A stretch of DNA of 35,444 nt from Planctomycetaceae bacterium (GCA_020426515.1 JAGQPW010000033.1:1-35444), one strand, 5' to 3'. Shown: positions 10,806 to 33,989, numbered from the stretch's first letter. Numbers and translations are program-made. The notes: generated from the letters alone by a model not told the origin.

Positions 10806-10925
10806 GCTGAACAATTTGAAAACCGAAACACGAGGGCCATCCCTCAGCCACAGTCTAAGCACTCTGCCCTGCGGACTCGACCGAATCAATTCTCGTAATA
10901 GAACGATCTGAACGAATTGCACGAC

Positions 10926-10953
10926 TTGAAGCGAATTCGAGGCGGACTATACT
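10926..10953 (+). promoter_or_regulatory. Putative promoter of peroxiredoxin gene
   Basis: TTGAAG (10926-10931), 16-base spacer, TATACT (10948-10953), a good match to the sigma-70 consensus. Transcription would begin near 10960, giving a leader of about 70 bases before the ATG at 11031. Confidence 0.5.
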
Positions 10954-11030
10954 CCGCTGAACACAACGCTCGACCCGGCGGTTGCTGCTCCGCTGTGATT
11001 TTATGCCCCTCTCTCTGGAGAATTGACACC

Positions 11031-11573
11031 ATGAGTGCCCAAGTTGGACAACCCGCTCCCGCCTTCGATGTCCAGGCCTACGACCGAACGAAAGATGGCT
11101 CGGACGATCAATTCCGCAACATTTCGCTGGAAGATTACAAGGGAAAGTGGGTTTGCCTGTTCTTCTACCCGCTCGACTTCACCTTCGTATGCCCGACCGA
11201 ACTCGTCTCGTTCAACGACAAGCTCGGTGAATTCGAAGACCGGGACACCGTTCTGCTGACCGCCAGCACCGACAGTGTGTTCTCGCACAAAGGCTGGTGC
11301 GACAGCCACGATGACCTGAAGAAGCTGAAGTACCCAATGCTGGCTGACACCACGCACAGCCTGTCCAGTTCCTACGGCGTGCTGAAAGAAGATGCCGGAA
11401 TCGCGTACCGCGGTATCTTCCTGATCGATCCCAATGGCGTGGTCCGCTGGTCCGCCGTGCACGACCTGAGCGTTGGACGGAATGTCGATGAAGTCCTGCG
11501 GGTGCTCGATGCCCTGCAGACCGACAAGCTGTGTCCCTGCAACTGGAAAAAGGGTGAGGAAACCCTCAACTAG
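11031..11573 (+). CDS. Typical 2-Cys peroxiredoxin (AhpC/Prx type)
   Basis: Reduces hydrogen peroxide and organic peroxides in the cytosol. Start at ATG 11031 is set by GGAG at 11017-11020 and by the conserved N-terminus (VGQPAPAFDVQAY); the frame is open further upstream but reaches into the promoter. The 180-aa protein has the peroxidatic site FYPLDFTFVCPTE with Cys54, and a C-terminal CPC (168-170) in KLCPCNWKKGEETL that supplies the resolving cysteine. It lacks the GGLG motif linked to sensitivity to over-oxidation, so it is likely a robust form. The next gene, 95 bases on, is AhpD-like and may reduce it, as AhpD does for AhpC in mycobacteria. A strong hairpin lies between the two. Confidence 0.95.
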   Translation: MSAQVGQPAPAFDVQAYDRTKDGSDDQFRNISLEDYKGKWVCLFFYPLDFTFVCPTELVSFNDKLGEFEDRDTVLLTASTDSVFSHKGWCDSHDDLKKLKYPMLADTTHSLSSSYGVLKEDAGIAYRGIFLIDPNGVVRWSAVHDLSVGRNVDEVLRVLDALQTDKLCPCNWKKGEETLN

Positions 11574-11596
11574 TTTTCCCGGTCGATGATGATTCG

Positions 11597-11634
11597 CTGC
11601 CGCGATTGGTAACGCATGTGACCGGTCGCGGCAG
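11597..11634 (+). terminator. Hairpin between peroxiredoxin and AhpD-like genes
   Basis: Left arm 11597-11610 and right arm 11621-11634 pair over 14 positions with two G-U pairs (outer nine bp CTGCCGCGA/TCGCGGCAG are perfect), 10-base loop, then TTCTATTT. Candidate terminator or attenuator giving more peroxiredoxin than AhpD mRNA. Confidence 0.6.
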
Positions 11635-11668
11635 TTCTATTTACACGTTCAACATGTGAGCTGTTGTC

Positions 11669-12304
11669 ATGGCGATGCTCTCCCCTCTCACTGACGATCA
11701 GACCCCGGAAGCCGTCGCTCAAGTGCTCGGTCGAGTTCGCGACATGTTCGGCGAGTCTCCGCTGCCAGAGATGTTCCGCGTGTACGCACATGTGGAACCG
11801 TTCCTGCGCGACTTCTACATGAACTTCAAGAAGTTTGTGTTCAGCAGTGGTGCTCTGGACGCTCAACAGAAAGCAGCCATCGCCCTGGCCGTGGCCGCCA
11901 ACGCGAAATGTCCCCCGTGGATCAACTGGCTCTCCAACCGTTGCCAGGAACTGGGATTCAGTTCCCCGCAGGTGGCCGAAATCCTGGCCGTGGGGGCGAC
12001 GAACGCCATGTACAACACCTTCTTCAAATTCCGAGACCTGAGCGGCAGCTCCATTTTTGAGGGCATGGGTGTCGGGCTGCGAGCCCACACGTTCAACAGC
12101 GTATCACTCGGCGAGCCGCTCGTTGAACTGATCAACATCGCAATCAGTGACATCAACGCCTGCAAACCCTGCACAACCGGACACGTGGAAAAAGCCCGTC
12201 AACTCGGGATCTCGAACGAGCAGTTACTGGAATGCGTGCAATGCGCGGCAACGATTTATGCCGGCTGTCAGTTTCTCAACGCTGCGGAAAGCTGTACCGG
12301 TTGA
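11669..12304 (+). CDS. AhpD-like carboxymuconolactone decarboxylase-family protein
   Basis: A 211-aa helical protein. The second half has the AhpD active-site pattern ELINIAISDINACKPCTTGH, with CKPC at 165-168 and His172 and an acidic residue about 12 positions before, as in alkylhydroperoxidases that use a CXXC pair to reduce AhpC or peroxides. The first half looks like an ancient repeat of the same fold (AAIALAVAANAKCPPW, with CPPW at 81-84), in which the second cysteine is Trp. Length is slightly above the 175-180 of mycobacterial AhpD. ATG 11669 has GTGAG a few bases upstream. Pairing with the peroxiredoxin gene just before it strongly suggests an AhpC/AhpD couple; reduction by dihydrolipoamide, as known elsewhere, is inference here. 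Confidence 0.9.
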   Translation: MAMLSPLTDDQTPEAVAQVLGRVRDMFGESPLPEMFRVYAHVEPFLRDFYMNFKKFVFSSGALDAQQKAAIALAVAANAKCPPWINWLSNRCQELGFSSPQVAEILAVGATNAMYNTFFKFRDLSGSSIFEGMGVGLRAHTFNSVSLGEPLVELINIAISDINACKPCTTGHVEKARQLGISNEQLLECVQCAATIYAGCQFLNAAESCTG

Positions 12305-17732: not shown

Positions 17733-19871
17733 TCATTCGGTCCCCCCTGCCGCTTCGGTCGTTGCAGCGTCGTCAGCAGCTGGTTCCTCGCCTTCGGTCA
17801 CAGCCGTGAGATCCTCACGCTCTTCCTCGGGCTTGTATTGCAGCACAAACTGAATTGTAAATGTCGTTCCGGGGTACACTTTCACATCCGCAGACCCTGG
17901 TCGGGCCGCCCCGGACCCGGGCTCCAGGCCCGGCGCAGCGCCGGGAAATTCAGGGACTGCTGAACCGGCAAATTCGTCTGGCGAGCCGGGCGCCCCGGGA
18001 CCGCCGGGAGTACCGAACCGGTTCGTGCCGCTCAATGTGCGGGAGGCTGTCAGGTCCCGCCCCTTGACGTCAATCTGCAGTGGAACGGCCTGCCCCTGCT
18101 CCATGATCGTGGCGTGATGAATTCCCAACCTCCGAACATCGCGCGTGGGATACCCTTCGCGATGAATCTGCTGCTGATGGAGGTTATTCAGGAACGTGTT
18201 CTTAACAAACAGGATCCCGGCATTCGTGGGCTCATCGGGATTGTTGTAGTAGTGCCGCCCTCGAACGGTCACGACATAGCCTTCACCGGAAGGTGGATTG
18301 GCCTGATCGTCAGCCGTCATGTACTTCAGCTGGGCTTCAGGAACCTTGCCAAACCAGTTGGAAACATCCGATTCCTTTTTGGCACTGAATTCGTCCAGCG
18401 TGACCAACGGCTTCAGGTTGATCGATTCCGGTTCTGGAGCCCCTTCGGGCAGACGCGGCAAACAATCGACAATCGCGTTGTACACATCAAGCCAGTGCAC
18501 ATCGCGGCGTCCCTCGATCAACGTCGAAAGTCGAGCTTCCGCCGCGCCACGGCGGCCGACTTCTCCATCGTAAGCTGCCTTCAGTGAAGACACCTTGCTC
18601 CCCAGATCCTGAGCCTCTTTCTCGGCTTTCGCGAACTCAGGCGTATGCACCACACTATTGGTGTAGGCATTGCCTGCAGTGGAGAGCGTGTAGCCCAGCA
18701 GCAGTGATGCTGCCGCGGCCACTGCCCAAGGCTTCTTGCGCTTGATCGTGCGTGCCGTCTGGATTTCCGGCGGCAGCAGCGACGTGCGAATTCGGGTCAG
18801 TTTAAGCGTTTGCAGAGCGAGCCCGTATGGAACGGCAAAGCTCAAAATGTTGTCGGCGAACAGTGGCGAATTGACGACCGCATCGCCAGCCAGCGTGCGG
18901 AACGCATCCGGCCGATCAACTTCGTACTGCAGGTTCTGCTGCAGGAACTTCTGCAGACCGGCGAGCTTGAAGCCGTTCCCCAATCCAACCACCTTGGCGA
19001 TCTTGGCCTGTCGCTTCACACTGGAGAAGTAACCGACGGATCGCTGAATTTCCGAGACGTAGTCGTTGAACACCGGTCGCAGAGCCTGGAACACGGCTCG
19101 CGGATCAGGTGACTTGGTCGCGTTGCACTTCAGGTGCTCGGCCTTGGCGAAGCTGAGCTTCATTTCCTTGGTGAGTGCCCGCGTGAAGTGATTGCCCCCG
19201 ATGGGGACGTTACGAATCCAGATGCTGTAGCCATTGGTAACCAGCAGCGTGGTGTTGTCGCAGCCCATGTCGAGGATGATGTAGTAATCATCTCCGGCTT
19301 CACCATCCGCATCGCGACGAATGCCGAGTTCGTCGAAGCTGAGCATGTTGTACAGCGACAGCGGCGCCGCTTGAATCAGTTCGACTTCGACCTTGGCGTT
19401 GTTGTACGGACGCAGGTACTGGGCAATCTGATCGCGTTTCATCGCGAACAGGCCGACCTCGGCATCCAGCAGGAACCCGCTCTGCTCGGCTCCGGCACCA
19501 AGAGGCTGATAGTCCCAGATCACGTCTTCCAGCGCGAAGGGAATCTGCTGACGGGCCTCGTACTTCACGATCTCATGCAGCTTGCCCGCTTCGACCGGGG
19601 GCAACTGAATGAATCGCGTGAGGGCCGACTGTCCCGGCACACTGATGCCGACGAGATTCCCCTTGAGATTGTTCCGTCCCAGAAACGTTTCCATCGCCTG
19701 CGGGACGATCTCCTCGGGGATCGCATCCGGCTGACTCAGAATCTTGGGAAAGGCGATGTAGTCGAACGCTTCGGCGACAACCTGTCCTGCCGATTCGATG
19801 TAGCGCAGCTTGATTGCTTTCAGAGCGGATTGACCAATATCAATCCCCCATGCCGCACGCGTTTCCGCCAT
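17733..19871 (-). CDS. pilM: PilM-PilN-like fusion, pilus assembly ATPase-fold protein
   Basis: Start at ATG 19871 (MAETRAAWGIDIGQSALK) is supported by GAGG seven bases upstream; an earlier in-frame start would only add a basic tail. The first 370 residues are the actin-like PilM fold: phosphate loop GIDIGQSALKAIKL, the PilM hallmark YEARQQIPFALEDVIWDYQ near 108-126, second phosphate loop DMGCDNTTLLV near 205, and GLGNGFKLAGLQ. After SLLPPEI the chain has one membrane span (KKPWAVAAAASLLLGYTLS, about 385-403), a coiled coil and a periplasmic-side domain, i.e. the arrangement of PilN fused to PilM; total 712 aa against about 350 for PilM alone. PilM and PilN form the inner-membrane alignment complex of type IV pili. 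The tail ends in a Gly/Pro-rich, acidic stretch. Confidence 0.88.
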   Translation of the reverse strand: MAETRAAWGIDIGQSALKAIKLRYIESAGQVVAEAFDYIAFPKILSQPDAIPEEIVPQAMETFLGRNNLKGNLVGISVPGQSALTRFIQLPPVEAGKLHEIVKYEARQQIPFALEDVIWDYQPLGAGAEQSGFLLDAEVGLFAMKRDQIAQYLRPYNNAKVEVELIQAAPLSLYNMLSFDELGIRRDADGEAGDDYYIILDMGCDNTTLLVTNGYSIWIRNVPIGGNHFTRALTKEMKLSFAKAEHLKCNATKSPDPRAVFQALRPVFNDYVSEIQRSVGYFSSVKRQAKIAKVVGLGNGFKLAGLQKFLQQNLQYEVDRPDAFRTLAGDAVVNSPLFADNILSFAVPYGLALQTLKLTRIRTSLLPPEIQTARTIKRKKPWAVAAAASLLLGYTLSTAGNAYTNSVVHTPEFAKAEKEAQDLGSKVSSLKAAYDGEVGRRGAAEARLSTLIEGRRDVHWLDVYNAIVDCLPRLPEGAPEPESINLKPLVTLDEFSAKKESDVSNWFGKVPEAQLKYMTADDQANPPSGEGYVVTVRGRHYYNNPDEPTNAGILFVKNTFLNNLHQQQIHREGYPTRDVRRLGIHHATIMEQGQAVPLQIDVKGRDLTASRTLSGTNRFGTPGGPGAPGSPDEFAGSAVPEFPGAAPGLEPGSGAARPGSADVKVYPGTTFTIQFVLQYKPEEEREDLTAVTEGEEPAADDAATTEAAGGTE

Positions 19872-20305
19872 GTGATGCCTCGTCGCTGAAAAGCATTCCA
19901 ATTGCCGGTGAGGTGAACCCTCGTGGGAGTCCGGCAAATCGTATCAGGTCACCAAGGCGACCTGAAGTCTGGGAACTCTTTAAGTTTATGCCAGATGGAC
20001 CGGGATCGCCAAGCCGATACCTCGTCATTTATTTCAAATCGCGGCCACATCCCCGGCAGACCGCACCACTGAACTTTCGGCTCATCAATTGCGGCCTGTC
20101 GAGCCCATCTGCAGTTTGGACGCAGCTCACCACAGGATAGTTCCCGGCCATTCTCCGAAAAGTCCACGACCGCGCCAGGCCAGCCCAGATCTACAAACGG
20201 TACATCCAGTACAACCGGCGCCGCTTCTTGTTCCACGCGCAGGTGGCCGATACGCTGCGGTCTTTCCCGCACGCAAAGCTCGTTTCTCCCAAGCCTGGAC
20301 GCCAA
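19872..20305. other. Divergent intergenic region, 434 bases
   Basis: Lies between the divergent pilM-N and bestrophin genes and should contain both promoters. I see a short inverted repeat CAGGTC/GACCTG (19945-19950 with 19959-19964). There is no convincing promoter consensus. ORFs drawn through it extend neighbouring genes or run antisense and show no protein-like composition. Confidence 0.55.
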
Positions 20306-21172
20306 ATGCTGACGCAAGAGTTTATTCGTCCTGTCCTGCACAGCCGCACGTTGCGTGGGGTAGCTGGGCTGGCTCTTGTCGTTGGCCTGTACGCGATCCT
20401 TGCGGTCTGGAAGGAGAACTCCCCCTACAGCGAAGTCGGAGACATCCCCTCTGAGGTCCACACTTCGCTCACAATGGTCCTCGGATTCCTGCTGGTTTTT
20501 CGCACCAACGCCGCCTACAGCCGCTGGTGGGAGGCACGGACGCTGTGGGGCGGACTTGTGAATGCCAGCCGCAACCTGACCATTAAGATTTCCACATTGC
20601 CCCGCTCCCCGCGAGATGAGGTGGAGGCCACGGGCCAGCTCATCGCGGCGTTTCCCAAAGTCCTCAAGAATCACTTGCGAAGCGAAGCTCCCGACGATCT
20701 TGCCCCCTGGCTGGTTGAGGAATTGCATCGTGTTCAGCATGCCCCGGGATTTCTCGTCTCCATGCTGTACACGCGGCTCAGCCACTGGAAGCAACAGGGC
20801 TGGATCGACGGCGATGAGTTGCGAGTCATCGACCGGGAACTCGCCCGACTGCTCGACATCTGCGGCGGTTGTGAGCGGATTCTGCGGACACGGATTGTCC
20901 GTTCGTACCGGACCTTTGCCCGTCAATGCGTGCTGATCTTTCTCCTGACCCTCCCCTGGGGCATAGTGAACACCTTCCAGTGGTGGACAATTCCGCTCAC
21001 CGCCATCACGGCCTATTTCATGCTGGGTATGGAAATCGTGGCGGAACACGTCGAAGAGCCATTTGGGTACGATGATGACGACCTCGACCTGGATGGCCTG
21101 TGCCACACAATCGAAGCCTCCGTAACAGAACTCCTTTCTTCAACTAGACTTTCGAACACCACCACAACGTAA
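20306..21172 (+). CDS. Bestrophin-family anion channel
   Basis: Start at ATG 20306 (MLTQEFIRPVLHSRTLRG) gives 288 aa, normal for bacterial bestrophins (YneE/UPF0187); an in-frame TTG 78 bases upstream is less likely. Signature motifs are clear: GFLLVFRTNAAYSRWWEAR followed by LWGGLVNASRN (about residues 60-90), a second hydrophobic pair near the end (LIFLLTLPWGIVNTFQWW, IPLTAITAYFMLG), and the conserved EEPFGYDDDDLDLDGLC ahead of the C-terminus, equivalent to the acidic cluster of the family. Bestrophins form pentameric membrane channels; eukaryotic ones conduct chloride, some bacterial ones sodium, so ion choice is open. Single gene, divergent from the pil operon. Confidence 0.94.
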   Translation: MLTQEFIRPVLHSRTLRGVAGLALVVGLYAILAVWKENSPYSEVGDIPSEVHTSLTMVLGFLLVFRTNAAYSRWWEARTLWGGLVNASRNLTIKISTLPRSPRDEVEATGQLIAAFPKVLKNHLRSEAPDDLAPWLVEELHRVQHAPGFLVSMLYTRLSHWKQQGWIDGDELRVIDRELARLLDICGGCERILRTRIVRSYRTFARQCVLIFLLTLPWGIVNTFQWWTIPLTAITAYFMLGMEIVAEHVEEPFGYDDDDLDLDGLCHTIEASVTELLSSTRLSNTTTT

Positions 21173-21578: not shown

Positions 21579-23711
21579 ATGACGGCACAGAAGATCGGGC
21601 AGCTCGACCTGGAACGCGTGGCCTGGCTGTTGGAGCAGCTGGGACGGGAGTTTGGTCATGAACCCGAACGTGGCGAACTGCGTCGATCACTCGAAGAATC
21701 GCGTGCCGCATGGACCGCGATTGATGATGGGAACTGGTGGAAGGCGTTTGTCGAAGCCGGAGAAGGGCAAAACCTGAGGTTTCGCCTTTCCGACTGTACT
21801 GCCGGGGAACTGCGCAGTCTGCTCGACGACGGCGCGTGGGTCATTGCCCCCACACTCACACATGGGATTGCCTCCATCGGACCGTCTTCGGGCCGCAAGT
21901 ACCGCATCGTCGCCCCGGATTCTGGTCGGCGATTGAGGTTCGGCAACTTGCTGTCGGAGCTGTCTCTCCGCGTTGACGATGGCCGATATCGCTGTCTGGT
22001 GGTCATCGCTCACTCCACGCAGCCACATGGCCACCATCTTTCGCCACTGCGACGACTCTGGACTCTGCTGCGTCCGGAAACGGGCGACATGTGGACAGTT
22101 TTCGCCTTCGCCCTTGTTACCGGATTACTCGGTCTGGCCACGCCGCTGGCCGTGGAGGCGCTGGTCAACACGGTTGCCTTCGGGCGATTGTTCCAGCCCG
22201 TTGTGATTCTCTCCGTAATGCTGCTGGCGTTTCTGGCGTTCCAGGCAGCCTTGCGGGCATTGCAAACCGTTGTTGTCGATATTCTGCAGCGTCGACTGTT
22301 TGCACGTGTCGCCGGAGACATTGCCTACCGAATGCCACGCACGCCCATTGCTGGCCTGCACGGCGAATCGGGACGGGAACTCGTGAACCGGTTCATGGAA
22401 ATCGTCACCGTGCAGAAGGTCGCGGCACAGTTTCTGATGGATGGGATCAACCTTGTGTTGAGCACGATCATCGGGATGACTGTGCTGGCGTTTTACCATC
22501 CGTGGCTGCTCGGCTTCGACGTCATTCTGCTGGGGCTGATTGTGTTTGGCACCTTGCTGCTGGGTCGCGGAGCCGTCCATACAGCCATCAATGAATCCAA
22601 AGCGAAATACGACACTCTGGCCTGGCTGGAAGATCTCGGCGGCACCGAATTGACGTTTCGCCACGGTGGATCACATGACTTTGTACTCGAGCGGACCGAC
22701 AGGCTGACGTACAAGTACCTCATGGCCCGCCGCGAGCACTTCCACATTCTGATGCGGCAGATCATATTCGCTCTGGGTCTGCAGGCCGTGGCCAGCACAC
22801 TGCTGCTGGGTCTGGGTGGCTGGCTGGTCATCAATCAGCAGTTGTCCCTGGGCCAGCTGGTGGCGTCCGAACTGATCGTCGCCACAATCGTGGGGGCGTT
22901 CGCGAAGCTCGGGAAGCACTTTGAAAGCTACTACGACCTGATGGCTGCGATCGACAAACTGGGCCATTTGTTCGACCTGCCCATTGAAGATCAGGGAGGA
23001 CTGCTCAGCTTTCCGGACGACCAGCCGGCGGAAATTGATGTTCACGGCGTCAGCTATACCGGACAGGTTGGCGGTCAGGCATTGGGACATGTCAATCTGC
23101 ACCTGGAATCGGGAGCCCGCGCCGCTCTGCGGGGCCCCAGCGGCAGTGGCAAAAGCCTGCTGCTGGACCTGTTGTTTGGTATTCGCGAGGCATCAACCGG
23201 GCATATTTCCGTCAATGGCATTGATGTCCGCGACTTTCGCCCGGATGTGTACCGTCGGCATGTTTCCCTGCTCCGGGAAGTGGAAGTGTTCGAGGGAAGC
23301 GTCGCCGAGAACATCCACCTCGGTCGCCGGGACATTTCCTCCGCAGATGTCCGTCTGGCCCTCAGTGCGGTTGGCCTGCTCGACGATGTCCTGCGGCTGC
23401 ACCAAGGAATGCAAACGGAATTGGGACCTCATGGAACACCACTTACGTCCAACCAGTTACGCCGCCTGATGCTCGCCCGCGCAATTGTCGCCAAGCCAAG
23501 GCTGCTGTTGATTGACGGACTTCTCGACGCCCTGCCGGATGAAACTTCGCGTGACCTGATGACCATGCTGTGCCGTAGCGACCAACCCTGGTCATTGCTC
23601 ATTGTCTCTGGACACGAACTGCTGCGGCGAGGACTTCGCCAGATCCATCTGCCTGGCCCGACGACGCAAGCTCCCTCTTCGGAATCGGAGGCTTCTCACC
23701 ATGTCGGTTGA
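21579..23711 (+). CDS. Type I secretion-like ABC protein with degenerate ATPase motifs
   Basis: Start at ATG 21579, with AAGGA upstream. The 710-aa chain has an N-terminal region of about 155 residues of unknown type (no C39 peptidase Cys/His motif seen). Then come an ABC exporter membrane domain (about 165-450; spans include FAFALVTGLLGLATPLAV, VILSVMLLAFLAF, LVLSTIIGMTVLAFY) and a nucleotide-binding domain (about 485-690). Walker A is intact: GPSGSGKS (519-526). The Q-loop Gln is replaced, probably by Arg566. The signature reads LTSNQ (622-626) instead of LSGGQ. Walker B is LLLID with Asp646, but the catalytic Glu is Gly647; H-loop His679 is present. Such a site should bind ATP but hydrolyse it poorly. 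It overlaps the next gene by 11 bases (ATGTCGGTTGA), so translation is probably coupled. The substrate is unknown. Confidence 0.88.
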   Translation: MTAQKIGQLDLERVAWLLEQLGREFGHEPERGELRRSLEESRAAWTAIDDGNWWKAFVEAGEGQNLRFRLSDCTAGELRSLLDDGAWVIAPTLTHGIASIGPSSGRKYRIVAPDSGRRLRFGNLLSELSLRVDDGRYRCLVVIAHSTQPHGHHLSPLRRLWTLLRPETGDMWTVFAFALVTGLLGLATPLAVEALVNTVAFGRLFQPVVILSVMLLAFLAFQAALRALQTVVVDILQRRLFARVAGDIAYRMPRTPIAGLHGESGRELVNRFMEIVTVQKVAAQFLMDGINLVLSTIIGMTVLAFYHPWLLGFDVILLGLIVFGTLLLGRGAVHTAINESKAKYDTLAWLEDLGGTELTFRHGGSHDFVLERTDRLTYKYLMARREHFHILMRQIIFALGLQAVASTLLLGLGGWLVINQQLSLGQLVASELIVATIVGAFAKLGKHFESYYDLMAAIDKLGHLFDLPIEDQGGLLSFPDDQPAEIDVHGVSYTGQVGGQALGHVNLHLESGARAALRGPSGSGKSLLLDLLFGIREASTGHISVNGIDVRDFRPDVYRRHVSLLREVEVFEGSVAENIHLGRRDISSADVRLALSAVGLLDDVLRLHQGMQTELGPHGTPLTSNQLRRLMLARAIVAKPRLLLIDGLLDALPDETSRDLMTMLCRSDQPWSLLIVSGHELLRRGLRQIHLPGPTTQAPSSESEASHHVG

Positions 23712-25176
23712 TACCACCATCCCCCAGAAAGCGACCCATCCCCGGCCTAAGAACGGACTCAGCCCGGTTGCCTACGACGAAGGAATGATGCCAGCTCTGC
23801 GCCTGGCTCGCTCATCCCGGCTGGCCCGACGGATCGCACGATTCCTGTTCTTCGGACTGGTCGCGACGATCGTGGTCATGGTCTACGCCCCGTGGCAGCA
23901 GTCAATCACTGGAACCGGAGACGTGATCGCCTTCGCGCCCGCCGAACGTCAACAAACCATTGAGGCTCCGATCAAAGGACGGATTGAGCGTCTGGGAAAT
24001 GACCTCGCGGAAAACACGTTTGTTCGCAAGGGGGACCTGATTGCCGTCATCTCCGATTTGGACGAAGGCTATGCCGTGCGTCTGCAGCAACAACTGCTCA
24101 ACAGCCGCCAGGCGGCCATGGCCGCTCATCAGCAGTTGGAATCGGCGCACGCGGCCGTTGACTCAGCACATCTGGTCGTCGAATCCCTGCAATCCCAGGT
24201 CGTCGCCTATTCAAAAGTGAAGTCTGAAACGATCGCTGCACAGGATGCTTACGTCGAGATGGCAGAGAAGAAAATCTTCGCCTATCAGCAACAACTCGTG
24301 GAATACGAATCCGCCCTGCCCCAGCTGGAAGCGGAACTCAGCCGACTTGAGATCTTGCACCGGGAAGGAAACATCTCCCTGCAAAAAGTACAGGAAGTGC
24401 AAGCCAAGTTGCGGGGGCAGCAGGCCAAAGTCGCCAAAGCCCAGGCTGACCTCGAAGGTGCCCAGGCCGAATTGATCGGCAAGCAGCGGGAACGGGTCGC
24501 GAAAATCGAAAAGGCACAAGTCGACATCGACTATGCCGAAGCGTCTCTCCGCAAGGCCATGCAGGATGTCTCCAAGGCCCGACAGGAGGTCGGCAAAGCG
24601 ACCCAGGAGACCAACAAGGCCGAAAAAGATGTACTCGAGTCAGAAACCAAACTGGCCCGGCAGGAACAACAGGTGATCACGGCTCCGTTTGACGGATACG
24701 TCGTGCAGATTCTCCCGAATAATGGCACGGCCATCCTCAAGGAAGGCGATCCCATCTGCACCATCGTCCCCGCCACCAGCGAACGGGCCGTGCAGATCTG
24801 GGTCAATGGCAACGATGCGCCGCTGATTGAACCTGGCCGGCACGTTCGGCTGCAGTTCGAAGGCTGGCCTGCCATTCAATTCTCGGGATGGCCATCAGTC
24901 GCCGTGGGAACATTTGGAGGATACGTCTCCTCAATCGATTCCACCGACAACGGGAAAGGGAAGTTCCGGATTCTCGTCCGCCCGGATGAAAATGATGATC
25001 CCTGGCCGGATGACCGCTACTTGCGCCAGGGAGTGCGGGCCAATGGATGGGTACTGCTCAATCAGGTTCCTCTCTGGTTCGAGTTCTGGCGCAGCCTGAA
25101 TGGCTTCCCTCCGTCCGTAGCGGCTCCGGACAGCGACAAAGCCAAGAAAAGCAAGCCTCCCAAACTTCCCAAGTAG
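23701..25176 (+). CDS. HlyD-family periplasmic adaptor (membrane fusion protein)
   Basis: The start at ATG 23701 overlaps the end of the ABC gene; the frame is open upstream inside that gene but only as a shadow. The 491-aa protein has a cytoplasmic N-region of about 40 residues, one membrane span (about 44-62, RFLFFGLVATIVVMVYAPW), a first half-lipoyl segment (QQTIEAPIKGRIERLG and VRKGDLIAVISDLDE), a long coiled-coil hairpin (about 120-315, e.g. AKVAKAQADLEGAQAEL), the second half-lipoyl segment (ITAPFDGYVVQILPNNGTAILKEG) and a beta-barrel domain (LIEPGRHVRLQFEGWPA). The C-terminus is Lys/Pro-rich. This is the classical adaptor layout bridging an inner-membrane ABC exporter and an outer-membrane TolC-type channel, both encoded next to it. 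Confidence 0.95.
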   Translation: MSVDTTIPQKATHPRPKNGLSPVAYDEGMMPALRLARSSRLARRIARFLFFGLVATIVVMVYAPWQQSITGTGDVIAFAPAERQQTIEAPIKGRIERLGNDLAENTFVRKGDLIAVISDLDEGYAVRLQQQLLNSRQAAMAAHQQLESAHAAVDSAHLVVESLQSQVVAYSKVKSETIAAQDAYVEMAEKKIFAYQQQLVEYESALPQLEAELSRLEILHREGNISLQKVQEVQAKLRGQQAKVAKAQADLEGAQAELIGKQRERVAKIEKAQVDIDYAEASLRKAMQDVSKARQEVGKATQETNKAEKDVLESETKLARQEQQVITAPFDGYVVQILPNNGTAILKEGDPICTIVPATSERAVQIWVNGNDAPLIEPGRHVRLQFEGWPAIQFSGWPSVAVGTFGGYVSSIDSTDNGKGKFRILVRPDENDDPWPDDRYLRQGVRANGWVLLNQVPLWFEFWRSLNGFPPSVAAPDSDKAKKSKPPKLPK

Positions 25177-25352
25177 TGCTGCCACTCCCGCGTCCAGCGC
25201 AGTTCAGACTTGGGAAGTGGTACCGATTGTATGGTTTGCAATGGCTTTCGGGACGGCAACCAATAAGCACACCGTATCGAACAATTGCCCACGGGACGCG
25301 GTCGATCGACTCGAGACACGGCGTCAATTGAGACGATCAGAAGGAAGCTGCA

Positions 25353-27047
25353 ATGTGCAAGCATTCCTCCCGATTCTCTCAGTGTAACGGTTCTCCGGTG
25401 ATGACCGCCCGAATTTTCCTACGGACGCGCCTGACTCCGCTGCTGTTGTTCGTGCTGTCCATTTGTGGTTGCGCAACCCGTAACCACAGTGTTCAAAGCG
25501 AGGTGCAGCCCAAGGATCGTGATCCGATTTCCATCGCAGCTCAGTCACCACCAAAGGTCGATGGTGACAGCGATCATGCTCAGGAAACGCAATCGTCCAT
25601 TCGCCTCACAGCGACCGACGAATCAGATCTGCTGGGGCCATCGATCGTCGCCCCGGAATCCGAATTGCCTCCCGCACCTGGGCCAGCCACCGATGAGTTG
25701 CCCGATCCGGTAACGGCAGTCACGCTGGACAAAGTGATTGAGTCGGTCTACTTCAGCTATCCATTGCTGGAATCGGCTCTGTATTCGCGGAACATTGCCG
25801 AGGGCGAGCAGCTCGCCGCATGGGGAGAGTTTGACCTCAAACTCAAAGCCTCCACAGCGAATGGTCCGGTAGGATACTACGAGACCTATCGCCACACGAT
25901 TGGTGCAACGCAACCGACCTGGAACGGGGGGGAGGTTTTCGCCGGATATCGCGTGGGGCGTGGCTACTATCAACCCTGGTACCTGGAACGCCAGACCAAC
26001 GATGGCGGTGAGTTCAAAGTCGGTGCCAGTATTCCGCTGTTGAGAAACCGAGATATCGACGATCGACGTGCCGGTGTCTGGAACAGCGATTACGGTCGGC
26101 AAATCGCCGAACCGGACATTCAGGCCCAGCTCATTGGATTCGTGCTGGAAGCTTCCTATGTATACTGGGATTGGGTTGCCGCATCGCGCAAGCAGGAAAT
26201 TTACAGCAACCTTCTCCGTCTGGCCGAAGACCGCATGGAACGAATTCGGCGGCAGGTGGAAGAGGGCTTCCTCGATCCGCCTGAGCTGACGGACAATCGT
26301 CGGCTCGTGGCTGATCGAAAAGCCAAACTCGCCGACGCCCAGCGGAAGTTTCAGCAGACAGGCATCAAGCTGTCGCTCTTTTATCGCGACGCAAACGGGA
26401 AATCGATTATCCCCAGCATCGACAGCCGCCCCACGTTTCCACAGCCGCAACCGATTTCGGAAGACCAGCTCGAATCGGACCTTCTGATTGCCTACCAGAA
26501 CCGTCCTGAACTGGTCCATCTGGACCTGAAGCGACAGCAGCTCAACGTTGATTACGCGAATGCAGAGAATGACCTGCTGCCGAATCTCGATGCCGTCATC
26601 ACCGGATCACAGGATGTCGGACTGCCCACCAGCAGCAAGCGAGACAAGTCACCCTTCGAACTGGAAGCCGGATTGTTTGCCGATGTGCCATTGCAGCGTC
26701 GCAAAGCCCATGGAAAGCTCGCGGCGATTGAAGCCAAGCTGGCGCAGCTGCAAGCCAAGCGGCAACTAACCACAGACAAAATCGCCGTTGAGGTCCGCAA
26801 TGCTTATGTCGCCCTCGACAAGGCATATCAACAGGTCCTGGAAACTCGATTGGCAGTGGCTCTGGCTGAAGATCTTGCACGCCGGGAATCGCGGAACGAG
26901 GAACTTGGGCTGTCCGATATGCTCAAGGTCTCACTGCGCGAACAATATGCTGTGGAGTCCGCTGTGAAGCAGGTTGACGCTTTGACTCAATATCACAAAG
27001 CTCAGGCTGACTACCGCGCCGCGCTGGCCCTCGACCAGCTAAACTAA
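25353..27047 (+). CDS. TolC-family outer-membrane efflux protein, lipoprotein leader
   Basis: Third gene of the export operon, 176 bases after the adaptor. ATG 25353 has AGAAGGAAG upstream, so I kept it, although ATG 25401 would give a more usual leader. The hydrophobic stretch LLLFVLSICGC ends at Cys40, a likely lipidation site. A Pro/Glu-rich linker of about 80 residues follows, then two outer-membrane-efflux repeats with long helices (e.g. EIYSNLLRLAEDRMERIRRQVEEG, LAQLQAKRQLTTDKIAVEVRNAYVALDKAYQQVLETR). The pattern DLLPNLDAVITG and PLQRRKAHGKL matches the TolC superfamily. TolC forms the outer-membrane exit duct for type I secretion and efflux. 564 aa, longer than average because of the linker. 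It converges with the RsbW-like gene. Confidence 0.9.
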   Translation: MCKHSSRFSQCNGSPVMTARIFLRTRLTPLLLFVLSICGCATRNHSVQSEVQPKDRDPISIAAQSPPKVDGDSDHAQETQSSIRLTATDESDLLGPSIVAPESELPPAPGPATDELPDPVTAVTLDKVIESVYFSYPLLESALYSRNIAEGEQLAAWGEFDLKLKASTANGPVGYYETYRHTIGATQPTWNGGEVFAGYRVGRGYYQPWYLERQTNDGGEFKVGASIPLLRNRDIDDRRAGVWNSDYGRQIAEPDIQAQLIGFVLEASYVYWDWVAASRKQEIYSNLLRLAEDRMERIRRQVEEGFLDPPELTDNRRLVADRKAKLADAQRKFQQTGIKLSLFYRDANGKSIIPSIDSRPTFPQPQPISEDQLESDLLIAYQNRPELVHLDLKRQQLNVDYANAENDLLPNLDAVITGSQDVGLPTSSKRDKSPFELEAGLFADVPLQRRKAHGKLAAIEAKLAQLQAKRQLTTDKIAVEVRNAYVALDKAYQQVLETRLAVALAEDLARRESRNEELGLSDMLKVSLREQYAVESAVKQVDALTQYHKAQADYRAALALDQLN

Positions 27048-27159: not shown

Positions 27160-27708
27160 TCACTCCGAGTGACACTGCATTGTCGGGAACTCTGGGTCCG
27201 ACCCGACCGCGACGGAAGCATTCCGCTTAATCAGAGTGACTTCGTTGCCCTTGGAGTTGTATACCACCTCGTCCATGAAGGACCGCATCAGCAGCATGCC
27301 GCGCCCACTGGGCCGATCGAGCGTCTCATCATCTGTCGGATCAGGAATCTGCGAGACGTCAAACCCCGGCCCCTGATCGCGGATTGTGAAGCATCCTTCG
27401 GCCCCGGAAATCCGGCAGTGCAGCCGAACTCGGCGGCGATGAAAGCGAGGATCCTCCTGACGCTGCGCGATCGTTTGTTCAAACAGGTCGTCGCCACTCT
27501 CCCGAAGATCCGAGCTGACCTCGAGATTGCCATGCACAATGGCATTCACCAGCGCCTCTTCTAATGCCACGCTGATTCGAAATCGCCCAGCCAGATCACA
27601 CAGACCCGCGGCTTCGCAGGCATCAAGCAACAGCTCAACGGTCGGCGTGACCTTTGACTTGTCGTTGTCGAGTTCGAACTCGAATCGGTGATCATTGGAT
27701 GGGGACAT
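27160..27708 (-). CDS. RsbW-like ATP-binding (anti-sigma/serine kinase) protein
   Basis: From ATG 27708 (MSPSNDHRFEFEL; AGGGAAG upstream) the protein is 182 aa; starts at ATG 27732 and TTG 27747 are also in frame. It has the GHKL fold of HATPase_c_2: N-box EEALVNAIVHGN (50-61), G1 box DQGPGFD (111-117) and G2 box SGRGMLLMRSFMDEV (134-148). Members act as serine kinases of anti-anti-sigma factors, anti-sigma factors or output partners of stress and polarity switches. An insertion of about 25 residues (ESGDDLFEQTIAQRQEDPRF) sits between the N-box and the G1 strand. No anti-anti-sigma (STAS), phosphatase or sigma-factor gene is adjacent, so its partner must be elsewhere. Confidence 0.9.
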   Translation of the reverse strand: MSPSNDHRFEFELDNDKSKVTPTVELLLDACEAAGLCDLAGRFRISVALEEALVNAIVHGNLEVSSDLRESGDDLFEQTIAQRQEDPRFHRRRVRLHCRISGAEGCFTIRDQGPGFDVSQIPDPTDDETLDRPSGRGMLLMRSFMDEVVYNSKGNEVTLIKRNASVAVGSDPEFPTMQCHSE

Positions 27709-28183
27709 GGAGGCACACTTCCCTGAGATCATCTCGCCACTGGGCAAGAAGCACCAATTTTACTCAGGCAGTTGGTTAGGTTGCCGACAGGACAATACAA
27801 AAATCGCTGCTGGCAACAGGTGATGGAAACTTCGAACGAACTTTCACATCGACAGCCATCACTATTATCGGCTGCCCTCAATTCGTGACCTGCGTCGAAT
27901 GGCCGAAAGGTCGAAGCCTGGATGGGAAATAACGACGGAAATCACGTACAGAGCACGATTTTATACGGATTGTAGCACTCAATTGTCACTCTTTCCTTCC
28001 GAAACTCACCCCGGTTTGTCCCTTTCGAGACCGGGGGATGTTCAACTTTGCCACACTCTTTCGTCTGTAAGCAGCACAACATCAAGCCTTTCGAAACGAC
28101 GAGCCGGAACCTGTTTCGCCTTGTTTGGACTGGAATCTGCGGCCTGATGAAAACCTCGAAGGCCTCTCGCAACGGTGGTCGGT
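27709..28183. other. Intergenic region, 475 bases
   Basis: Lies between the RsbW-like start and the DUF456 stop, both on the minus strand. It should hold the RsbW-like promoter and the DUF456 terminator. It is more AT-rich than its surroundings around 27780-27990. One 82-codon ORF (27899-28147, plus strand) has no SD, no recognisable motif and low-complexity Ser/Thr; I do not call it. No strong hairpin seen. Confidence 0.55.
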
Positions 28184-28877: not shown

Positions 28878-31800
28878 CTAACGATTGAACAAGAACGCCG
28901 GGCTGTTGATCAGAGCCCAGGTCAGATCCTGTGCTGTCGTCAACCGGATGTCCTTCAGTTGGCCCGCACTCAACCCGACCGCCCGTTCCAGCCGAGCCAG
29001 TCGCGGGTCCCTGGGTAGCGGCTGACTGACCTCGTCGAGAACCTTCTTCAATTCAACCAGTTTGGGGTCCTCTGGCCGCGGCTTACTCACCTCGGCCAAC
29101 GTCTTCTCCAGCCTGGAGTATTCAGAATCCATCTTGCGATGGTATTCGCTCAGCTCTTTCTTCTGCTCCTCGGTGCGTTCGGCTTCAGCCGTCTGAACGA
29201 TCTTCAAAATGTTCTCCGGAATTCCGAAGTTGATCGGCGGAGCGGCGTTGGTCACTGAGAGGCGGAATCGACCAATCGTGTGATCCTTTCCCTGATACAT
29301 CTGGTCTAAGGTGAAGTGCAAAACGATCTCACCTTCCAGTGTCAGTGGTTCCTTCAACTCAAAGGTCGCCACGCGGTTCTTACCGATTTCCGGACTGGTC
29401 GCCCAACCATTGGCTGAGCTCTTCTTCTCTCCGTCGATGGTCGTGGCCACATCATAATTTTTCTGACTGAAATCGGCCTGGGCATTCTGGAGCACAAGCG
29501 TTTGCTTCTCTTCGGGCTTCCCCTTCGACCAAGCCTCGACAGTGAACTCCGTCAGCACAAAGTTGCCGTTACTTGCTCGCCCCGGGCCATTCGAAGGCAG
29601 GCGCGGATCCGCAAACAACTGCAACTTGATCCCCGTAATCCCCGTCAGGCTGGTTTCCGCAGTGACAGTGTAGTTCCCGGTCCGGTCATTGGGCCCCGTC
29701 ACAAAGATGGAGTTGTCCTCTTCACGTTCCAGCTTGGCCTTGGTGGTGGACTTCAGCTCGCGTGGCTCAAGAATCGTCCATTCCGTCTCTCCGGAAGCAA
29801 CCCCCTGCTCCCAGGCGGCCAGCTTCTCCGGCAGAGACGCCTTGTAGTCTTCCAAGGCCTTCGTCGCGGCGGCAATCTTCTCCTGACGAGCCTTCTCGGC
29901 TGCCTCTTCCCGCTCACGAATCGGCTCCCAGTAGGCATCGTATACCTGCTGTGCAGCCGCGATGGCCTGCTCCCGCTTCGCTTCCTTTAGTGCCAGCACC
30001 GGAGCGATCGACTCGCGATAGGCCGCCAGTTCCTGCTCCAGTTGCTGATGCCCGGCCTGCAGGTCCTGCATCAACTGCACGGTCGCGGCAATCTCATCCG
30101 AGTGAGCCGGACGGTTCAGAACCCGCATGAAGATCTCATTGATCAGATCCGCATCGTCGGGAATCTCTTTCACGAGTTTCGCGATGGCATTGTCCGGCTG
30201 AGAAATTGCCTCACTGACCGTCGGGCCGTTCATCAGCGACATAATTGGCCCCAGTTGCAGATCAGCCGACCGTTCGCATTCGCAGGCCGACTCCCGGACG
30301 GGACGCCCCAGCGTCGCCAGGAAATTGTCCGCCAACTCCACACCGACATCGGGCAATGCGGCGGCACGTGTTCCCGCAGGCACACCGGGAATCGTCATGC
30401 GGGCTCCGGTCACCGTGTAAACCGAATCGTACAGCACCTCGGCTGGCAGTCGTTTCGGCATGCCATGGGAATAGTTGGTCACATCGTCGGCATTCCAGTC
30501 GTTGGTGGCGACCGACAGCTGGTAGGTGCGGCTCTGGCAAATCGTGCGCATCAGGAATCGAACATCGAATCCAGACTCAATAAACCGCTCGGTCAGCCAA
30601 TCGAGCAGTTCCGGATTCGAGGGCGGATTTCCAGCACGAATGTCGTCGATGGGTTCAATCAGCCCTACCCCCAGCAGGTAGCCCCAAATTCGGTTGGCAT
30701 AGCTGCGGGCAAAGTAGTCGTTATCGGGATTGGTGATCCAGGTCGCCAGATGCAACCGCCGAGTCCCCTCCTCGGCCACTGGTATTTCGCGGTCGTACGG
30801 CACAAGAGGAGCCGTCACTTCCCCGGTGCGGTCATGCTTGATCTCGCCGCTGTCGTTGTCAAAGACCACTTCCCACAACGGCTTGGCTCCCTCGACGGCC
30901 GTTCCGCCAATGTTGCCGTCCTTGTTCTCTGGATCCCGTTTCAACCCCACCTGACTGAAGAACGCAGCCGTCTGGTAGTACTGGTCCTGGGTCCAGCGTT
31001 CGAATGGATGGTCGTGGCACTTGTTGCAATTGAACCGCACTCCGAGGAACAGGTGCGTTGTGTTCTCCATCATTTCCGTCGGCTCGCGAAGAATCTTGTA
31101 GTACGACGCGGCCGGGTGAACTTTGTTTGACCCATCAGCGATGAGAATCTGACGGCAAAACTCGTCATACGGTGTGTTCGCCGCAACCTGTTCGCGAATC
31201 CAGCCGCGGAACAGCTTCGCCCCTTCCGCCCCAAGAAACTTCCGGTTGACCTGCAGCAGGTCCGCCCACTTGTTGGTCCAGTAATCGACAAACGCTTCGG
31301 AACCAATCAGTTCATCAACCAGAGCATTTCGCTTTTCCCGGGTGGGACGCGAATCGGCCAGGAACGCACGCACGGCGTCGGCCGTTGGAGGCAATCCCGT
31401 CAGGTCCAGCGAGACACGACGAATGAACTCATCATCCGTGCACAGGCCCGAAGGCGCAATCTTCATCCGCTGCCACTTCGCTTCGACGAGTTTGTCGATT
31501 TCATTCCAGGTTTCCGGTTCCTGCCATACAAATCCCGTGCGATCTCCCATCACGGTCAGTGTGGTGGCGGCGTAACGCCCTTCAAAGCGAGCCAGCAGTG
31601 GCGATTCTCCGCGACGGATGGCGGTCACAATTCCGGCCCGGTTGATTTCGGCACATTCGGTGTTGCCACTATCGATGTAGGCTTCTCCGGACACATCGCG
31701 TATGGAACCGTCTGAATATGTCGCCACGACGCGCATCTGCTGACGGGCCCCAATCCGCTGCACCACCGGGTTCTCGGGCTCCAGGCGAATGCTCTCCACG

Positions 31801-33989
31801 CGCGGAACATTCAGATCGAGCTGAGCCCCTTCGGCAATCCAGCGCCGGACGGTTTCATAATACGGATGCCCGGGCGTAGTGAGCTGACCACCAAAATGGG
31901 GGACCGCTCCGGTAGCTTTCAGCAACATCAGGCTGTTGTCAGGCGACGCCACATTTGTTCGACGAGACTTCACATCATCAGTAAAAGCCCGCACATCGTA
32001 GATGGGATCATATCCACGCAGAGAAAGCTTAAATCCGTTCTTGCCATCTTTCGCACCGTGGCAGGTTCCCTGATTGCACCCCATCCGGGACAGCAAAGGG
32101 TTCACATCTTGAATAAAGCTGACGGGGCCGGAATTCGTCTGACCGGAAACCTTGATGGGGATCACAACAGTTTGCCCATCGAGAGCGACAGTCAATGTTG
32201 CCTCACCATCCTTCAATGCCGTCACGCGACCACGAGAGCTCAAACTCGCTGCATCGCCCGAAAGCGTCAACTTGCCGATGCGAGTCACGTCCACCGCGTC
32301 TCCCGTATCGAGCGTCGCGGTCACCAGTACCTGGGCGTAAGCATGCGGTCCATGCAGGTCAACCTGCTGTGGAATGACCGTCAATTGCGTCACCTTCGTC
32401 CCCGAGGGAAGTGCCTCGGGCGCGGGAACGCCGTCGCCAGCTTCAGCATGAGCAGGATTGTGCTCCGCCTGAGTCAGTCCGTCACCGGGCGACAATTCGA
32501 TCGGAGCAAACTCCTTCACGATCGTCCCATCAGCTGGATTGAGCAGTCGAATGGTGCCATCGGCACCGGCTGCCGCGATCGCGGATCCATCGGGCGCGTA
32601 GCTTAGGGCATACACACCGCCCGGAATCTCTGTCTGGGTCAGTACACCAACATCTGCTGTCACATAGGCTTCCAGCTTGTCCTTCTCTTCCTGGTTCTGT
32701 TGAGACACGGTCTTCTGAACGATGCCCTTGATGTCATCGGGCATCGCCGGATCAAAGTCCGCCTTGCATGTGAAGACCTGCCCTTTCCCATCCAGGCTGG
32801 ACCCGCAGGCAACAGACTTGCCATCCGGAGCATACGCCACGCCATAGATGCGTCCCACCATGGGAGGGAAGCGTCGAATCAGATTGGCATCATCACCAAT
32901 CACGCGTTTCGTAATGCGTTCCATGCGATAAATGCGAGGCACTCCGTCCGAACCGCCCACGAGCACTTCATCTCGCTCGGGATGTCGGGCCAGTGCGGAG
33001 ATGCCCCCTTTCAGGGCACCGGGCGTAATGGATGTCACGTTGTCGACAAACCGCTGCGTTCCCACTTCGTACAATTTGGTCGCCATGTCCCGACCCACCG
33101 AGACGATCTTCGAACCATCAACCGAAAAGACCGTCGCCAGCGGCCAGTCATCATGAGCCCCGTTGAAAAAGACCTGTTCCCCCGTTTCCGCATTGAACCC
33201 GCGAACTGTGTTGTCCACACAGCCAATCGCAACCAGTGTCCCATCGGGTGACCAGCTCACACCATAAGTGGTGTCGAAGGTGACCGGCACAGACAGCGCC
33301 AGCTTGGGGCTTGTCCCGGCTGGTTCGCCGAGATTCCAGATCTGCAATTCCCCCATCCGACCGGGCTTGCCGCCGCTCACGGCGAGTCGCTTGCCATCCG
33401 GAGAAAACGCAACGGCTTCAATGCGTTCGGAAACCCCAATCAAACGGGCTACGAGCCCCGAGCCGTCAGCGCGATGCAGCAGCACTTCGTGGAATCCGGA
33501 AATCGCCAGCAAAGTTTTATCCGGCGAATACGCCAGCGACGTCACAATCGGCGGGCGGGTATACATGGGGGGATGTTCGAGATCGTAGCGCTGCCGGGCA
33601 TTGTCCGGCGTATCGTCCTTTGCCCCCTGGGTGATCCAGCGGCGAACCAGTTCGATTTCCGGCGCCGTCAACGCAGGTTTCCCCTTGGGCATTTCTGCCT
33701 CGCCGTCGGCATTGGGCGTAATGAGACTCAGCAGATAACTCTCTTCTGGATTTCCCGGAACGATCGCTGCATCGCCGCTCTCGCCTCCTTTGATCAGGTC
33801 GGCCATGTCCGTCATGACATAGGCACCACTCGACTTCGCCGGCTGATGACAGCCCTGGCAATGGGCCTGAAAAATCGGCCGCAGGTCTTTGTAGTAGCTG
33901 ACCGGAGCAGACGGCTCATCGGCGGAGACAATCCAGGGGCCGCAGCAAACAGCAAAGGCCCACAACGTGAGAAGTCGTTGCATTGACAT
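28878..33989 (-). CDS. Giant secreted cytochrome / WD40 / DUF1549-DUF1553 protein (1703 aa)
   Basis: Signal peptide at 1-23 (LLTLWAFAVCCGPWIVSADE). The first heme-binding domain (PSCyt1) has CQGCH at 44-48. WD40-type repeats follow (about 145-490; motifs such as AVAFSPDGKRLAVSGG and GVSWSPDGTLVAIGCVDN), then Ig-like (BIG2) segments around 530-620 and 725-800. A second cysteine motif CNQGTCH lies near 637-643 (C-X4-CH). DUF1549/PSCyt2 (about 830-1040) has CNKCHDHPFERW near 986, and DUF1553/PSD1 starts about 1090. DUF1553 seems interrupted: after FMRVLNRP (about 1287) come a coiled coil, a beta-rich region and another helix, before the usual ending LTWALINSPAFLFNR. These proteins are abundant in Planctomycetes, often near sulfatases or DUF1501 genes, and are thought to act in extracytoplasmic carbohydrate or redox chemistry; function is unproven. 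ATG 33989 and 33983 are both possible starts. Confidence 0.93.
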   Translation of the reverse strand: MSMQRLLTLWAFAVCCGPWIVSADEPSAPVSYYKDLRPIFQAHCQGCHQPAKSSGAYVMTDMADLIKGGESGDAAIVPGNPEESYLLSLITPNADGEAEMPKGKPALTAPEIELVRRWITQGAKDDTPDNARQRYDLEHPPMYTRPPIVTSLAYSPDKTLLAISGFHEVLLHRADGSGLVARLIGVSERIEAVAFSPDGKRLAVSGGKPGRMGELQIWNLGEPAGTSPKLALSVPVTFDTTYGVSWSPDGTLVAIGCVDNTVRGFNAETGEQVFFNGAHDDWPLATVFSVDGSKIVSVGRDMATKLYEVGTQRFVDNVTSITPGALKGGISALARHPERDEVLVGGSDGVPRIYRMERITKRVIGDDANLIRRFPPMVGRIYGVAYAPDGKSVACGSSLDGKGQVFTCKADFDPAMPDDIKGIVQKTVSQQNQEEKDKLEAYVTADVGVLTQTEIPGGVYALSYAPDGSAIAAAGADGTIRLLNPADGTIVKEFAPIELSPGDGLTQAEHNPAHAEAGDGVPAPEALPSGTKVTQLTVIPQQVDLHGPHAYAQVLVTATLDTGDAVDVTRIGKLTLSGDAASLSSRGRVTALKDGEATLTVALDGQTVVIPIKVSGQTNSGPVSFIQDVNPLLSRMGCNQGTCHGAKDGKNGFKLSLRGYDPIYDVRAFTDDVKSRRTNVASPDNSLMLLKATGAVPHFGGQLTTPGHPYYETVRRWIAEGAQLDLNVPRVESIRLEPENPVVQRIGARQQMRVVATYSDGSIRDVSGEAYIDSGNTECAEINRAGIVTAIRRGESPLLARFEGRYAATTLTVMGDRTGFVWQEPETWNEIDKLVEAKWQRMKIAPSGLCTDDEFIRRVSLDLTGLPPTADAVRAFLADSRPTREKRNALVDELIGSEAFVDYWTNKWADLLQVNRKFLGAEGAKLFRGWIREQVAANTPYDEFCRQILIADGSNKVHPAASYYKILREPTEMMENTTHLFLGVRFNCNKCHDHPFERWTQDQYYQTAAFFSQVGLKRDPENKDGNIGGTAVEGAKPLWEVVFDNDSGEIKHDRTGEVTAPLVPYDREIPVAEEGTRRLHLATWITNPDNDYFARSYANRIWGYLLGVGLIEPIDDIRAGNPPSNPELLDWLTERFIESGFDVRFLMRTICQSRTYQLSVATNDWNADDVTNYSHGMPKRLPAEVLYDSVYTVTGARMTIPGVPAGTRAAALPDVGVELADNFLATLGRPVRESACECERSADLQLGPIMSLMNGPTVSEAISQPDNAIAKLVKEIPDDADLINEIFMRVLNRPAHSDEIAATVQLMQDLQAGHQQLEQELAAYRESIAPVLALKEAKREQAIAAAQQVYDAYWEPIREREEAAEKARQEKIAAATKALEDYKASLPEKLAAWEQGVASGETEWTILEPRELKSTTKAKLEREEDNSIFVTGPNDRTGNYTVTAETSLTGITGIKLQLFADPRLPSNGPGRASNGNFVLTEFTVEAWSKGKPEEKQTLVLQNAQADFSQKNYDVATTIDGEKKSSANGWATSPEIGKNRVATFELKEPLTLEGEIVLHFTLDQMYQGKDHTIGRFRLSVTNAAPPINFGIPENILKIVQTAEAERTEEQKKELSEYHRKMDSEYSRLEKTLAEVSKPRPEDPKLVELKKVLDEVSQPLPRDPRLARLERAVGLSAGQLKDIRLTTAQDLTWALINSPAFLFNR

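Follow-up and report, generated by a model that had tools for sequence, protein, structure and literature searches.

We analysed a 35,444-nucleotide stretch of DNA from a Planctomycetaceae bacterium (GCA_020426515.1 JAGQPW010000033.1:1-35444), referred to here as the window, which carries a three-gene operon at positions 21579-27047 on the plus strand. By its gene content the genome appears planctomycete. The operon encodes an ATP-binding cassette (ABC) protein, an HlyD adaptor and a TolC channel, and a preliminary description had read it as a type I-like export operon. Gene calls, Pfam matches and coordinates all bore this out, as follows:

21579-23711, + strand: ABC-exporter-like protein of 710 amino acids, with a C39-like N-terminal domain, a six-helix exporter transmembrane domain (TMD) and a degenerate nucleotide-binding domain (NBD) (Pfam, AlphaFold (AF2), Foldseek)
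23701-25176, + strand: HlyD-family periplasmic adaptor (Pfam HlyD_3, 3.8e-11)
25353-27047, + strand: TolC-family outer-membrane channel (Pfam OEP, 1.8e-28)

The ABC protein matched Pfam ABC_tran at 9.8e-18 and, marginally, ABC_membrane (2.3e-6; 27.9 bits, with the cut-off at 28). The adaptor gene starts at the ATG at 23701, so that its first 11 bp are shared with the end of the ABC gene. In the TolC gene, a start at a later in-frame ATG (25401) would produce a signal like that of a lipoprotein. The domains of the ABC protein and the motifs of its NBD were assigned as follows:

21579-22013, + strand: N-terminal C39-like domain, residues 1-145, 24% mean identity (AF2, Foldseek)
22026-23003, + strand: TMD, residues 150-475 (alignment across three phyla)
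23034-23648, + strand: degenerate NBD, residues 486-690 (Pfam, motif alignment, AF2)
23133-23156, + strand: Walker A GPSGSGKS (519-526), intact (motif alignment)
23265-23291, + strand: Q-loop region SLLREVEVF (563-571), without Gln and one residue shorter than canonical (motif alignment)
23442-23456, + strand: signature LTSNQ (L622-Q626) in place of LSGGQ (motif alignment)
23502-23519, + strand: Walker B LLLIDG (642-647), Asp646 kept, Gly647 at the position of the catalytic Glu (motif alignment)
23604-23618, + strand: H-loop region VSGHE (676-680), Gly678 at the switch position (motif alignment)

The missing Q-loop Gln maps to about R566, with a one-residue deletion. The alignment thus agrees with the earlier account on the intact Walker A, the LTSNQ signature, Gly647 in place of Glu and the absent Q-loop Gln, and supports its claim that the only NBD is catalytically impaired. 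It had also held that the H-loop His remains, which proved to be off by one: in a gap-free alignment with relatives that keep ...ITH-D, Gly678 falls at the switch position, and H679 follows it, at a site that is Arg in most relatives. This leaves the protein with Walker A, the Asp of Walker B and Asp650 of the D-loop.

The same defect was found throughout the homologues. A clear orthologue (E<1e-90) was present in 35 of the 58 relatives searched, and the next ABC proteins appeared near E=1e-33; the few matches in between were second pieces of the same split matches. The family occurs in 100 of 170 genomes of the window's own family and in 55 of 392 genomes of a phylum-wide sample, and a single-protein scan of genome contigs gave one distant match only. 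Among 127 scorable distinct planctomycete homologues, none had an LSGGQ-like signature and none the full motif set. The fourth-position Gly of the signature was found in 22, the catalytic Glu in 21 and the switch His in 8, and the three that scored for a Q-loop Gln all look spurious. In 91 of the 127 the Gln, the fourth signature Gly, the Glu and the His are all gone, and 17 of these 91 have also lost Walker A. Overall, Walker A GK[S/T] is present in 102 and absent in 25, the Walker B Asp is present in 126, and the D-loop Asp650 is 98% conserved. The residues that take the place of the lost ones vary, with Gly (79), Glu (21), Ser (8), Arg (5) and Gln (5) the commonest at the Glu position and Gly (64), Ser (18), Asn (13) and His (8) at the His position. 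In eight members Walker A, the signature Gly, the Glu and the His are all kept and the signature is LSxGQ-like, but the Q-loop Gln is absent. As a control we took an ordinary ABC exporter encoded in the window's genome. Canonical motifs were present in 30 of 30 orthologues, one of them breaking off before Walker B ends and the other 29 being complete. Canonical motifs in close homologues would have pointed to a local mutation or a sequencing error; this explanation is ruled out, since the defect recurs in 127 homologues and in 13 more from two other phyla.

The ABC, HlyD and TolC genes occur together in nearly all loci. Some loci depart from the usual form. At L058:8955-12587 the ABC protein and the adaptor share one open frame of 1211 codons, either a natural fusion or a missing stop. 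At L074:8840-11095 an in-frame stop near the Q-loop splits the ABC gene into two abutting frames, with the downstream HlyD and TolC genes intact, and at L116:8854-9783 (genome G459) there is a 310-amino-acid N-terminal ABC piece, with no HlyD or TolC gene in the 19 kb read, which is probably a remnant.

Members outside Planctomycetota were drawn by tblastn from plasmid records only. The TMD used alone as query gave 22 plasmid matches, and all 13 that were retrieved proved to be family members with a degenerate NBD. Nearly all of these 13 share the ABC-HlyD-TolC gene order, which was seen in Persicobacter, Aureibacter and Riemerella (Bacteroidota) and in Novosphingobium, Sphingobium, Sphingomonas and Croceicoccus (Sphingomonadales), and their catalytic motifs are gone. 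One carrier is a tractable laboratory strain, Novosphingobium aromaticivorans DSM 12444, with the operon on plasmid pNL2 (locus L217). The NBDs of the 13 are even more eroded than those within the phylum, most having lost both Walker A and the Walker B Asp, the latter replaced by Asn, Ser, Lys or Gly. As annotated, the Sphingomonadales members are too short to include the N-terminal C39-like domain. One of the 13, the ABC copy of a Sphingopyxis plasmid (L214:4953-6386), is cut short in the NBD and adjoins an IS3-family transposase gene. Several members bear only the label 'ABC transporter ATP-binding protein' in their public entries, which hides the oddity, and no description of this family was found in the open-licence literature.

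The membrane domain is conserved in a way that the NBD is not. Twelve TMD residues (P189, F241, N270, R271, Q279, K280, G299, H307, S340, K343, G413 and G425) are invariant in the three phyla, and most of them are not present in the canonical control exporter. With a TMD profile, 44 of the 392 planctomycete genomes gave matches. Every one had E<1e-106 and the range from there to 1e-12 was empty, which marks the TMD as an isolated family. In 15 matched genomes the family showed mean identities of 60% for the TMD and 42% for the NBD (NBD/TMD ratio 0.70), whereas the control exporter from the same genomes gave 50% and 58% (ratio 1.18). The conservation gradient is therefore reversed relative to that of an active exporter. 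Median ratios of nonsynonymous to synonymous substitution (dN/dS) for close pairs were 0.044 for the TMD, 0.087 for the NBD and 0.12 for the N-domain; together with the identities, these values show that the NBD is constrained, but less so than the TMD. Its best-conserved positions are N578, A633, R634, P640, D646, L622 and D650, and the Walker A Lys takes 29th place among 214 positions. Parsimony on a quick TMD tree gave 13 changes for the Walker A state, seven for the Glu and three for the His, counts that are indications given the tree's uneven support and weak root. Repeated loss from an ancestor resembling the eight motif-rich members would be likelier than a joint regain of several motifs.

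The full-length AF2 model had a predicted local distance difference test score (pLDDT) of 87.4, and its top Foldseek match was HlyB in the HlyB/D complex (8dck, E=1.4e-25). The NBD is predicted to fold, with block pLDDT values mostly between 90 and 98. Modelled alone, the N-domain (pLDDT 87.5) matched PCAT1 (7n87, E=1.3e-4) and the C39-like domain of HlyB (3zua, E=2.7e-4). In 18 aligned N-domains W53, D72 and R138 are invariant and R36 nearly so, but no Cys or His is; judged from this alignment, the domain lacks the conserved catalytic Cys and His of C39 peptidases. Residues 1-155 had been described as not a C39 peptidase and of no recognised family. The former is upheld, and the latter stands by sequence but not by predicted fold, which matches the C39 peptidase and C39-like domains of PCAT1 and HlyB. 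The proteolytic site of the HlyB C39-like domain is itself degenerate (PMC8277102), and secretion cannot proceed without that domain, which acts by contacting the substrate (PMC11026475).

The HlyD adaptor carries one further conserved feature:

24343-24378, + strand: RLS-type TolC-docking motif, RLEILHREGNIS, R-x3-L-x6-S (adaptor alignment)

This pattern has been described for TolC docking (PMC3391258). The Arg and Leu are kept in 14 of 14 aligned adaptors, and the whole pattern is present in 79 of 103 adaptor open reading frames against 30 when shuffled.

No conserved candidate substrate gene was found among the operon neighbourhoods when neighbouring open reading frames were clustered, most clusters reflecting either local synteny or antisense shadows of operon genes. 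The genes that flank the operon in the window are:

17733-19937, - strand: PilM-like type IV pilus assembly protein, on the strand opposite to the operon
20228-21172, + strand: Bestrophin-family channel, about 400 bp upstream of the operon
27160-27747, - strand: HATPase_c_2 protein (anti-sigma/RsbW-like), convergent with the operon
28878-33989, - strand: multidomain protein of 1703 amino acids, whose start resembles a secreted haem-binding planctomycete protein

In several families NhaR-type LysR regulators adjoin the operon, at the following positions:

L048:14829-15740: NhaR-type LysR gene
L051:14199-15197: NhaR-type LysR gene
L056:7903-8883: NhaR-type LysR gene
L057:12108-13052: NhaR-type LysR gene
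L119:12280-13239: NhaR-type LysR gene
L126:3277-4227 and 10766-11962: NhaR-type LysR genes
L128:10505-11431: NhaR-type LysR gene

Genomes G022 and G052 provide further cases. Of three regulators tested, two scored above the 219-bit NCBIfam cut-off for NhaR and one fell just short at 218.6. In the 392-genome sample the operon-bearing genomes contain about 26 NhaR genes. Of these, 8, from 7 of the 55 genomes, directly abut the end of the operon or lie no more than about 4 kb away, far above the roughly 0.05 expected by chance (calculated for 27 genes and a span of 12 kb). No NhaR-type gene is present in the genome of the window. In E. coli, NhaR responds to sodium. The arrangement hints at a link of the operon to salt or alkaline stress, which is a testable lead and no more. 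An OxyR-like LysR gene lies close to several of the sphingomonad loci.

Among the nearest known systems is the HlyB/HlyD/TolC type I secretion system, which shares the order of C39-like domain, TMD and NBD, the adaptor and outer-membrane channel genes, and the RLS/RLT docking motif. HlyB is both the closest structural match and the best PDB sequence match for the TMD (E=3e-14). Unlike HlyB, this family is without the catalytic Glu, the switch His, the Q-loop Gln and LSGGQ, and has its own TMD residues. The best NCBIfam matches, to the models of NHLM, HlyB and LssB exporters, all scored well below their thresholds, and the type I models were missed by a wide margin (TIGR01846, 152 bits against 725.55; TIGR03375, 149 against 693.1). 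The gene set and C39-like N-domain of type I systems are present, but at the sequence level the functional ATPase motifs that help to define such systems are absent, and the scores of all curated type I models fall short. For these two reasons we call the operon type I-like and do not class it as a type I secretion system. Exporters of the PCAT/AMS type (PCAT1, ComA) have the N-terminal C39 fold and overall architecture in common with it; here, however, the catalytic C39 residues are not conserved and the NBD is degenerate. Planctomycetes also possess SecA_DEAD-associated HlyD modules, with a SecA-like ATPase and M50 proteins and no ABC transporter in the loci (Kamneva et al. 2015, PMC4452313). 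These likewise have type I-like adaptor genes without a working ABC motor, whereas the present operon has neither a SecA-like ATPase nor M50 proteins; that SecA-type motor system is ruled out here, as its loci are without any ABC protein.

How such a machine might work can be considered in several ways. One is that the homodimer binds ATP and the conduit opens and closes by binding and release, with hydrolysis very slow or nil, as in regulatory or channel-type ABC proteins. The retention of the Walker B Asp and D-loop Asp650 in almost all planctomycete members, and of Walker A in most, agrees with such a switch, but the signature that would close the site over ATP is gone. Moreover, given the 25 members without Walker A, its 13 changes by parsimony and its loss in most members outside the phylum, the switch cannot be a family-wide rule. 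The suggestion of ATP binding as a switch thus fails for the family as a whole and holds as a possibility for the window protein; we regard it as rather unlikely overall. A second ABC protein could instead supply hydrolysis, the family protein being an obligate half of a heterodimer with an intact half-transporter encoded elsewhere, as the preliminary description had also proposed. Exporters with one degenerate site do exist (TAP, TM287/288; PMC4242082), each with one NBD lacking the catalytic Glu, and the window's genome encodes other ABC proteins. In this family, however, the signature and the catalytic residues are gone from the same chain, so that in a 1:1 heterodimer neither composite site would be canonical. 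No partner gene is found in the operon, and another ABC match occurs in only 4 of 59 neighbourhoods, none of them part of the operon (the L074 match is itself a piece of the family gene). The TMD is also far from those of all other exporters. With no linked intact partner in the neighbourhoods checked, we consider this arrangement improbable.

Two other readings are that the protein is an active ATPase in which other residues replace the Glu, Gln, His and signature, or that the operon is decaying and non-functional. The purifying selection on the NBD and its normal predicted fold would suit non-canonical catalysis, but Walker A itself is missing in some lineages, and the variability of the residues at the Glu and His positions is unlike an alternative active site; this reading seems slightly less probable still than the heterodimer. 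Decay would fit the faster evolution of the NBD relative to the TMD and the isolated broken copies (L116 truncated, L074 with its internal stop, L214 apparently interrupted by an insertion sequence). Against it stand intact three-gene operons in dozens of genera of three phyla and dN/dS well below 1 in all domains. These rule out a pseudogene, and we give general decay very little credence.

On balance we favour, with modest confidence, a hydrolysis-independent tripartite envelope conduit in which the NBD is a structural or gating module. An inner-membrane exporter dimer with C39-like domains would assemble with the HlyD adaptor and the TolC channel, the conserved TMD dimer forming the inner-membrane part or gate of the conduit. 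The ABC subunit would have little or no ATPase activity, hydrolysing ATP at no meaningful rate, and its degenerate NBD would be retained as a folded module for dimerisation or coupling, with nucleotide binding in some lineages but not as a requirement. Transport would then be downhill or powered by another gradient rather than by ATP hydrolysis. The substrate or the adaptor might control the gate, as might nucleotide binding where Walker A is retained. There is a laboratory precedent in a D-loop mutant of TAP1 that translocates without ATP hydrolysis (PMC4242082). Some of the data weigh against this proposal. With an intact Walker A in 80% of planctomycete members and the Asp of Walker B in 126 of 127, nucleotide binding probably still matters in many of them. 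From their motifs, the eight members with Glu, His and LSxGQ-like residues may hydrolyse ATP. Furthermore, the AF2 model covers a single chain.

Transport driven by ATP is what defines type I secretion and ABC efflux. A conserved family under selection in several phyla, with an eroded motor but a preserved membrane domain, adaptor and channel, would be a natural test of transport by the ABC exporter fold without hydrolysis, and could also show which parts of the cycle need ATP. The broadest form of the proposal, that ABC-fold tripartite exporters without any ATP hydrolysis exist across phyla as gated, ATP-independent conduits from cytoplasm to outside with the NBD as a scaffold, is a tentative one that we doubt a little more than we believe. 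Collectively our data suggest that the machine probably moves cargo, or serves another role, without the usual ATP power stroke.

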